NCBI RefSeq assembly: GCF_019968905.1
Contig: NZ_CP079946.1
Location: 5,270,001-5,334,000, forward strand
Direction: 5' to 3'
From: Corallococcus sp. EGB
GTDB taxonomy: Bacteria > Myxococcota > Myxococcia > Myxococcales > Myxococcaceae
DNA: 64,000 nucleotides
Made by a program: the position numbers and the translations under genes. This document shows positions 43,421 to 55,504 of this stretch, piece after piece. The notes beneath the pieces are model-generated. The model did no database searches. It was not told the DNA's origin and was given only the letters and a program-made list of their open reading frames with translations. Numbering within the stretch: position 1 is the stretch's first letter; every line of letters starts with the position of its first letter.

Positions 43421-46400
43421 ATGACCGACACCGTCGACGTCCCCGTGTCCTCTCGGGGTCTGGCGCCTCGAACCATCGCTGATGCCTTCGAGCTCCAGGC
43501 CGCGCTTCGTCCCCAGGCCGTCGCCGTCCGCTGTGACGGAGAGCAGCTCACCTACGCGGAGCTGGATGCGCGAGCGAACCGGATCGCGGGCTGGTTGAAG
43601 GCGCAAGGCGTGGGCCGCGAACGGCCCCAGGTGGGCGTGTGTCTGCCGCGCTCGGTGGACCTCATCGTCACGCTGGTGGGCATCCTCAAGGCCGGGGGTG
43701 CCTACGTCCCGTTGGATCCGGAGTACCCCTCGGAGCGGCTCGCCTTCATGGCCACGGACTCGCGCGTGCGGATCATCGTTACGCGCGCCGGGCTGGCGTC
43801 GCGGCTGCCCTCCGGCGACTGGCACACGCTCCGGCTGGATGCGGACGCGCGGGCCGTGGCGGACTTCGGTGACGGGCCCGTCGCTCGCGACGTCGTGGAG
43901 GACGACCTCGCCTACGTCATCTTCACGTCCGGCTCCACGGGCCGGCCCAAGGGCGTGTGCGTGCCCCACCGGGGCGTGCTGCGGATGGTGCTCGACCCGA
44001 ACTACGCGCGGCTGGGCCCGGATGAGGTGCTGTTGCAGCTGTCGCCGGTGGCCTTCGACGCGTCCACCTTCGAGCTCTGGGGCGCGCTGCTCAACGGGGG
44101 CTGCCTGGCGGTGTTCTCGCCCGGAGCCTCCGCGCTGGACGAGCTGGGGGACTTCCTGCGCGTGGAGCGCGTGACGACGGCGTTCCTCACCACGGGCCTG
44201 TTCAACACGCTGGTGGACCGGGGCCTGCCGGGCACGCAGACGCTGCGGCAACTGCTCACGGGCGGCGAGGTGATGTCGCTGCCCCACGCGCGCCGGGCGC
44301 TGGAGCTGCTGCCACGGGCGCACCTCGTCAACTGCTACGGCCCCACGGAGAACTCGGCCTTCACGAGCTGTCAGCCCCTGCGCGCGCCGCTCGGGTCCGC
44401 GCCCGTGCCCATTGGCCACGCCATCTCCGGCACGCGGATGTACGTGCTGGACGCGCAGGGCCGCGAGCTGCCGGTGGGCGCGGTGGGCGAGCTGTACACG
44501 GGAGGCAGCGGCGTCGCGTGGGGCTACTGGTCGCGTCCGGAGCTCACCGCCGAGCGGTTCCTGCCGGATCCCTTCAGCACGGAACCCGGCGCGCGCATGT
44601 ACCGCACGGGGGACCTGGTGCGGCGGCTCGAGGACGGCGCGGTGGACTTCGTGGGGCGCGCCGACCAGCAGGTCAAGGTGCGCGGCTTCCGCATCGAGCC
44701 CGGTGAAATCGAAGCAGCGCTGCGCCAGCACGCCTCCGTGAAGGAGGCCGTGGTGATGGTGCGCGAGGACGCGCCGGGAGACCGGCGGCTCGTGGGGTAC
44801 GTGACGGCCTCCATCCCCCTGACAGCGCCGGCGCTGCGGACCCATCTGAAGGGACTGCTGCCCGCGCACATGGTGCCCTCGGCCCTTGTCGTCCTGGACG
44901 CGATGCCGCTCGCACCCAACGGCAAGGTGGAGCGCAAGGCCCTGCCGGATCCGCGCGAGTACGCCGGCGCTGGCGAGGACTTCGTCGCGCCGGAGACCGC
45001 CCTGGAACAGACCCTGGCGCGAGTCTGGGCGGAGGTGCTGCGCGTGGACGCGGTCAGCGCCACGGCGAACTTCTTCGAGCTGGGTGGCCAATCCCTCCTG
45101 GCCACGCAGGCCATGGGCCGACTGAGCGACGTGCTCCAGCGGCCTGTCTCGCTGCGCTTGCTGTTCGCGAACCCCATCCTCCGGGACTTCGCCGCCGCGC
45201 TGGAAGCAGCCGCGCCCACCGCCGGGCGCGCCGAGGCCCCCATCCCTCCGTGCACGGACGCCATACGGGAACAGTTGTCATTCGCGCAACAGCGGCTGTG
45301 GTTCCTGGATCAGTGGATGCCGGGGTCCGCGCTGTACTCGCTGCCGTTCGCGTTCCGCCTGGAAGGGCCCCTGGACCCCGCCGCGCTGGAGGAGGCGCTC
45401 CAGGCCGTGGTGAACCGGCATGAGTCGCTGCGCACCACCTTCCCGGGTGAGGGCACCGCCCTTCAGCACGTTGCCGCGCGCGTGCCCGTGACGCTGGAGC
45501 GCGCCGAGGCCAGCTGCGCGGATGAGACGCTCGCACGCATGCAGCATGAAGCGGAGCGGCCGTTCGACCTGGCCCGGGGTCCGTTGATCCGCGCGCTGCT
45601 CATCCGAGAGGCGGAGCAGCAGCACGTGCTGGTGCTCAACCTGCATCACATCGTGTCCGACGGTTGGTCCTTCGGCGTGCTGTATCAGGAGCTGTCCACG
45701 GCGTACCGGGGCGCGAGCACGGAACTGGCGCCCCTGCCCCTCCAGTATCCCGACTACGCGGCGTGGCAGCGCCAGTGGCTCCAGGGCGACGTGCTCCAGC
45801 GGGAGCTGGGCTTCTGGGAGCGGCAGCTCGCGGGCGTGTCACACGTGCTGGAGCTGCCCACCGACCGTCCGCGTCCCGCGGCGCAGCGCTTCGAGGGCGC
45901 CATCCATCGCTTCACGGTCCCCGCCCCGCTCCTCCGCGCACTGGAGGGGCTGGCCCGACGGGAAGGGGCCACGTTGTTCATGGCCCTGCTCACCGGGTTC
46001 CAGGTGCTGCTGTCGCGCTACAGCGGACAGCGCGACTTCGTGGTGGGCACGCCCATCGCGAACCGCACGCGCAAGGAACTGGAAGGGCTCATCGGCTTCT
46101 TCGTCAACACGCTGCCCATCCGGGCGCGCTTCGAGGGTGAGCCTTCGTTCCTCCAGTTGCTCGCGCAGGTGCGGGACCACGCGCTGGGGGCGTATGCGCA
46201 TCAACACCTGCCCTTCGAGAAGCTGGTCGACGCGCTCCAGGTCGAACGCGACGCGAGCCGGACGCCCCTCATCCAGGTGCTGTTCGCGCTCCAGAACGCG
46301 CCCGCGTCGCGGCTCGAGTTCCCGGACGTCACCGTCACCCCGCTGACGCTGGACACGCGCACGTCCAAGTTCGACCTGTTCCTCGCGCTGGAGGAATCCG

Positions 46401-55504: not shown

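Follow-up and report, generated by a model that had tools for sequence, protein, structure and literature searches.

A conserved single-gene tetramodular peptide synthetase of Corallococcus and Myxococcus, predicted to make a hydrophobic tetrapeptide, and a natural allele with an apparent A-T-C unit copy

Positions 43421-55504 (forward strand) of a 64,000-nucleotide stretch, here called the window, of the genome of Corallococcus sp. EGB, a predatory soil bacterium, encode a nonribosomal peptide synthetase (NRPS) that is real and conserved and is probably functional. The best explanation of the data, which we hold to be likely, is a single-gene, colinear, modular NRPS that would make an all-L, unmodified hydrophobic tetrapeptide released by its thioesterase (TE), and whose gene, although dispensable, is maintained by selection as an accessory gene in Corallococcus and Myxococcus. 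The synthetase is ordinary in kind; one allele, found in another Corallococcus genome (G010), is of wider interest. The architecture and the codes read in the initial annotation were borne out, and conservation in two genera and the recombination mosaic described below were missing from it.

The gene starts with ATG and forms one intact open reading frame of 4027 aa with the order A-T-(C-A-T)x3-TE, where A, T and C are adenylation, thiolation and condensation domains. Pfam recognises four AMP-binding, four AMP-binding_C, four PP-binding, three Condensation and one Thioesterase domain in the protein (condensation score 1129.9 bits, cut-off 30.6). The core motifs TSGSTG, GGxSLL and NGKxxR occur four times each and HHIVSDG three times, and the TE carries GLSMGG. 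A modular type I NRPS is defined by an ordered series of A, T and C domains that carry the core motifs and by a TE at its end, and the complete single-gene line proposed in the initial annotation stands, with ORF coordinates, Pfam domains and motifs all in agreement. All domains lie on the forward strand. The initiation module has A1 (43475-44965, code DAFFLGCAF, by domain-wise alignment) and T1 (approximately 45008-45211, motif GGQSLL, by Pfam and motif); A1 begins at residue 19 with no preceding C domain, which sets the gene apart from lipopeptide NRPSs with an N-terminal starter C domain. Module 2 consists of C2 (45248-46567), A2 (46613-48091, code DLLVIGGSF, from code reading and PDB comparison) and T2 (approximately 48128-48334), module 3 of C3 (48371-49714), A3 (49760-51250, code DAFFLGAAY, by domain-wise alignment) and T3 (approximately 51290-51496), T2 and T3 being placed by Pfam and motif. 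Module 4 comprises C4 (51530-52861), A4 (52907-54394, code DAFFLGVTF, from alignment and published codes) and T4 (54440-54634, by Pfam), followed by the type I TE (54731-55456, by Pfam and its GLSMGG serine motif). A Pfam scan of the whole protein showed no Condensation-family match beyond C2, C3 and C4 that might represent an epimerisation (E) domain. The frame is not a product of chance, because full-length frames are present in 14 other genomes. A scan upstream of the gene found no promoter or terminator, and its 3' end folds no better than shuffles. NCBIfam names the protein aureusimine synthetase AusA (2634 bits against a cut-off of 2500), a score that is a sum over repeated modules; we rejected the name because AusA has two modules and a reductase, whereas the window NRPS has four modules and a TE.

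The substrates can be approached from the codes, which were read by motif register and then by domain-wise alignment, not by alignment to PheA. Both readings gave the four codes of the initial annotation (DAFFLGCAFK, DLLVIGGSFK, DAFFLGAAYK and DAFFLGVTFK), whose tenth letter we take to be the K of NGK. In literature searches the exact nine-letter codes of A1, A2 and A3 had no published match, and that of A4 was the only one found. DAFFLGVTFK is given for cyanopeptolin domains OciB-A5 and OciC-A7, at positions that carry Ile and, in congeners, Val (PMC2533009); in aeruginosin-type NRPSs it is assigned to L-Ile or D-allo-Ile (PMC13122637). The ten letters are identical to those of A4, and the likeness is one of the pocket alone, as scaffolds, modifications and organisms differ. 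The near variant DAFFLGVTY was matched in two further papers. A4 probably activates Ile, and we infer branched aliphatic substrates for A1 and A3 from the likeness of their codes, near variants of the Ile code, to that of A4. Among the hydrophobic residues foreseen in the initial annotation, that of A4 has a published Ile code behind it; the small hydrophobic tetrapeptide proposed there, a prediction from sequence, is supported by architecture and codes together.

A2 differs from this pattern. Its code had been noted to match no textbook entry, and our literature search likewise found no published twin of the stem DLLVIG or of the variant codes. The pocket is probably aliphatic, and a Val- or Ile-like substrate is a guess, weakly held. 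When the scores of its two A domains are added, linear gramicidin synthase LgrA ranks first among the PDB matches to A2. LgrA A1, which takes Val, has the same pocket residues as A2 at five of nine positions (D235, L239, I299, G301 and G322) and differs at four; taken alone it scores 343 bits, below 5u89 (416) and surfactin 2vsq (387), so that overall similarity does not single it out, because several single A domains of other specificity score higher.

Across the 15 proteins compared, A2 keeps DLLV[IV]GG[ST][FY] and A4 keeps DAFFLGVTF in 14 each. Among the ten Corallococcus proteins identical codes are seen for A3 in ten, A2 in nine and A4 in nine. A1 reads DAFF[LYF]GC[AT]F in Corallococcus (DAFF[YF]GCTF in 8 of the 9 other genomes), and in Myxococcus DAFWLGFTF in four proteins and DAFFLGVTF, the A4 code, in one. 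A3, which is DAFFLGAAY in Corallococcus, reads DAFVLGGTA, DAFFGGFTY or DAFFLGATL in Myxococcus, where codes were taken from the domain-wise alignment, A3 being gapped in the whole-protein one. Because the A1 and A3 codes vary between the genera, a single product common to both is unlikely, and Corallococcus and Myxococcus probably differ in the peptide made.

The stereochemistry was approached through the C domains. C2, C3 and C4 all carry LSFAQ[QE]RLWFL and HHIVSDG, and in a tree built together with 48 further C-family domains from the same genome they fall apart from one presumed E domain and the C domain that follows it, a comparator that is a single pair, recognised from two adjacent weak C-family hits without a subtype model. 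LCL domains are assigned by the C1 motif. With a C1 motif of the LxFAQxRLW type, HHxxxDG, no upstream E domain and a place separate from the post-E clade, the three are LCL-like by motif and tree, and an all-L product is predicted because of this.

In the mechanism that we propose, a phosphopantetheinyl transferase (PPTase) encoded elsewhere would prime the T domains, A1 would activate a branched aliphatic amino acid and load it onto T1, and the three LCL-like C domains would extend the chain with the residues of A2 (probably aliphatic), A3 (aliphatic) and A4 (Ile), after which the TE would release an all-L hydrophobic tetrapeptide by hydrolysis or cyclisation. The release step leaves room for the main competing explanation, namely that the TE oligomerises, joining two tetrapeptides and cyclising them to a cyclic octapeptide or another multiple. 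A TE ends the line, and the sequence does not fix hydrolysis over cyclisation. In gramicidin S two halves are joined and cyclised by the TE, and EntF trimerises its substrate. EntF and the Acinetobacter NRPS 4zxh, which we take to be AB3403, are the closest solved relatives of the TE; however, the best score of 119.5 bits represents low similarity, and no positive indicator of oligomerisation was seen. We regard oligomerisation as possible but rather unlikely, and prefer release of the single tetrapeptide.

The gene stands alone in its surroundings. Upstream lie a DUF3105 protein (42673-43227), a UvdE-like frame and a peptidase M2; the last (39083-40930, minus strand) is angiotensin-converting-enzyme-like, scores 769 bits and has a signal-peptide-like start. 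Downstream follow a CBM-like protein, an HGSNAT-like membrane acyltransferase, a glyoxalase-like protein and a VWA protein. Since all six Corallococcus genomes that lack the NRPS contain DNA homologous to the genes for the M2 peptidase and the DUF3105, CBM-like and acyltransferase proteins, these genes are flank and not cluster; the CBM-like gene occurs in 16 of 16 Corallococcus genomes. Twenty further ORFs, a subset of those predicted in the window, were scanned with Pfam and no NRPS partner was recognised among them; 18 had a match, several to housekeeping proteins (Phe-tRNA and Thr-type tRNA synthetases, IF-3), and the closest transporter gene of this set lies at a distance of about 10 kb. 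By Pfam, none of the ORFs next to the NRPS was recognised as an MbtH, PPTase, regulator, transporter or tailoring gene, in line with the orphan setting described in the initial annotation. Elsewhere in the genome (9,431,171 bp, single contig) there are one MbtH, about 0.5 Mb from the NRPS, and three ACPS-family (PPTase) matches over the cut-off; PPTases acting in trans are usual for myxobacteria. Two other features of the window were seen. At 11242-15496 (plus strand), distant from the NRPS, an HlyD protein, an ABC ATPase and two MacB/FtsX-type permeases follow one another as a MacB-like export operon. Frames at 36594-38894 (minus strand, 766 aa) and 36174-38807 (plus strand, 877 aa) overlap on opposite strands without a Pfam match, with codon-position GC favouring the minus strand.

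To follow the gene across the family, we searched 96 genomes with the TE domain at E <= 1e-70, a threshold at which weaker relatives are missed. Matches were found in 17 genomes, 10 of 16 Corallococcus and 7 of 27 Myxococcus, and in none of the other 24 genera (2 of 26 genera). A scan of named species genomes by sequence pattern, sensitive to close relatives only, returned nine loci: five in Corallococcus, three in Myxococcus and one in a metagenome-assembled genome of the Myxococcaceae. Protein identity to the window NRPS is 80-89% in nine further Corallococcus genomes and 62-64% over aligned columns in five full-length Myxococcus proteins, with A3 partly gapped; the two other Myxococcus proteins (G084 and G096) are cut off by contig ends and did not enter the protein comparisons.

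The flanks on both sides of the gene adjoin the NRPS at 10 of 10 Corallococcus sites, the window included, indicating one common site. In one locus (L028 in G007, approximately 3884-5490), about 1.6 kb of additional DNA, not found at any other Corallococcus locus, stands between the NRPS and its downstream flank. In the six NRPS-less Corallococcus genomes the two flanks almost abut. In C. interemptor AB047A window position 43450 is joined to 55373 (L070, 10893-10897), an 11.9-kb internal deletion after which the gene retains some 30 bp at its 5' end and some 130 bp at its 3' end. The NRPS was lost by deletion in this species, which keeps the scar only, and the gene is dispensable. In the other five, window 43227-43231 is joined to 55490-55569 with 2-63 bp between; these genomes may have lost the gene or never gained it, and both fit.

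The Myxococcus copies sit elsewhere. Searches with blastn found no homology to the Corallococcus flanks at any of the seven Myxococcus loci, which have a downstream region of their own in common that encodes a TPR protein in one record. The flanking genes seen differ between the sites of the two genera and the NRPS is the only thing seen in common, which is our strongest argument that it looks like a one-gene pathway. An ORF of about 455 aa lies 3' of the NRPS in several Myxococcus loci (L061, 1370-2737, minus strand, matching part of L062, L063, L065 and L066), overlaps the NRPS end in some of them and was not seen by alignment at L064 and L067; its frame was checked in L018/L061 and L063, and the other loci were compared by nucleotide alignment. 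As a candidate accessory gene it was rejected, as it has no Pfam match and the nucleotide alignment stops short of it at G091 and G096.

These comparisons also bear on a second alternative, in which the peptide is tailored in trans and belongs, as a variant, to a known family of myxobacterial tetrapeptides such as the chloromyxamides. The initial annotation knew of no described myxobacterial tetrapeptide that fits; such a family exists, and the statement holds insofar as no local gene for its pipecolic acid was recognised. The title of the original report describes chloromyxamides as Myxococcus tetrapeptides with a 6-chloromethyl-5-methoxypipecolic acid unit (Gorges 2018), and clusters of this type have been predicted in M. 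faecalis strains and isolate MSG2. Both are myxobacterial NRPS tetrapeptide systems, but if, as this title suggests, a chloromyxamide-type cluster holds chlorination and methoxypipecolate genes, the window NRPS is unlike it: no halogenase, methyltransferase or pipecolate gene, nor any other tailoring gene, was recognised beside the Corallococcus NRPS, none was recognised in the scanned Myxococcus flanks (seven ORFs of two loci and four of a third record of one), and the two genomic sites have no common flank. We consider a chloromyxamide variant very doubtful, and the unmodified tetrapeptide remains the preferred reading.

Selection on the gene was estimated with a Nei-Gojobori style method. 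Relative to the window copy, dN/dS is 0.18-0.26 for the nine Corallococcus orthologues and 0.30-0.37 for the five Myxococcus proteins, the latter values being rough because synonymous divergence amounts to 0.83-0.97 and part of the A3 region is missing from the alignment. The NRPS is under purifying selection, with dN/dS about 0.2 within Corallococcus. That it is decaying and makes nothing, as its absence from 6 of 16 Corallococcus genomes and the scar in C. interemptor might suggest, is hardly credible given this ratio, the open frames of 4010-4045 aa in 15 of 17 matching genomes (the remaining two end at contig ends) and, by plain pattern, the T, C and TE motifs in 15 of 15 proteins, fourfold TSGSTG in 14 and fourfold NGK in 13.

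Within the gene, modules 3 and 4 are in stretches more alike inside one genome than either is to its best Corallococcus orthologue. Among 53 windows of 40 codons, which overlap and are thus not independent, this holds for 7 in the window protein, all within the latter half of the A domain, and for 1-12 in the ten Corallococcus genomes. Modules 3 and 4 of the window gene are 95-98% identical over the second half of A and 67-78% over the pocket-coding stretch just before it, which is at 62-82% across the ten genomes. These values are consistent with intragenic recombination that would homogenise the two modules locally while the pocket-coding stretches stay distinct. The homogenisation is not new in kind, because neighbouring C domains are very close also in other long synthetases of this genome and concerted evolution in NRPS clusters is already known (PMC4256081). 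As in that work, similarity between modules inside a gene exceeds similarity to orthologues in stretches, whereas our comparison is at nucleotide level, in ten congeneric genomes and on a single four-module gene.

The allele of G010 (Corallococcus, 10,080,619-bp contig, L023) goes further. Its C2 is orthologous to that of the other genomes, residues of approximately 1015-1778 are in the register of the next module, and the protein is orthologous again from 1809, so that the conserved A2 code is replaced by that of A3. With six close genomes as reference, 622 sites separate the two registers, of which 317 follow the orthologue, 283 the shifted register and 22 neither one. Within the tract, 279 sites were scored and add up to a net score of 263, reached by none of 2000 shuffles (maximum 45); the shuffles ignore linkage between sites, and the trees weigh more. 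In these, the G010 A2 is sister to the G010 A3 and its C3 N-lobe is sister to the C4 N-lobe, both with support 1.0. As a control, the six reference genomes, each compared with the other five, have 5-30 shifted sites among 649-728. A reciprocal scan of the next unit of G010 over 622 sites gave 535 orthologous, 50 shifted and 37 neither, with a small tract at 1697-1778 (score 10, reached by no shuffle, maximum 5) that lies within the copied C3 N-lobe, whose source, C4, is absent from the references of that scan. The first break is close to the end of C2, about 40 residues ahead of the WNDT motif; the second falls between residues 1778 and 1809, where C3 has its HHIVSDG motif. Assembly collapse is an unlikely source of the pattern: the genome consists of a single contig, and in windows of 40 codons the two copies are 2-16% apart.

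The pattern is most simply explained by one copying event that covers about 2.3 kb, is offset by one module and would have placed the module 3/4 block onto module 2/3. In one lineage, a process like that acting on modules 3 and 4 would have overwritten A-T of module 2 and the N-lobe of the following C domain with the copy of the next unit, and the product should change, as A2 of G010 is expected to take the substrate of A3. Val codes end in GGTF, and the A4 code of G010, DAFFVGGTF in place of DAFFLGVTF, looks Val-like, with no recombination tract visible in the profile; the one Val code searched for was not found in the literature. We give even chances to the reading that G010 represents a natural A-T-C(N-lobe) exchange between adjacent modules, leading to a second chemotype with residue 2 like residue 3 and a Val-like residue 4.

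A unit with breaks at the end of one C domain and within the next resembles units used by NRPS engineers. Natural swaps have been reported to hit predominantly the A-core while keeping the C-A linker and the Asub-T interface, with two exceptions, one C-A and one A-T-C-A exchange (Baunach et al. 2021, PMC8097286). In those units as in G010, module paralogues exchange DNA and residues thereby change, whereas the G010 tract runs from the end of a C domain through the C-A linker, the whole A domain and T into the N-lobe of the next C and is not an A-core subdomain swap. It would be a further exception to the A-core rule, between neighbours and comprising A-T and a C N-lobe. Topic literature searches, with most subscription papers outside their reach, gave no title reporting an earlier exchange of this kind.

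Corallococcus genomes carry on average 25 NRPS clusters over 11 genomes, with 9 in strain EGB (PMC8466578), and another unassigned synthetase is routine because such clusters are many. This one is useful because apparently one gene makes up the whole pathway, with a short, simple and testable product. Natural alleles of it differ by one clean copy of a module unit, so that it can be tested directly whether A-T-C units are exchanged in nature with the assembly line left in working order. If the exchange is true, the two alleles would allow one synthetase to be compared, as nature made it, before and after a unit exchange.
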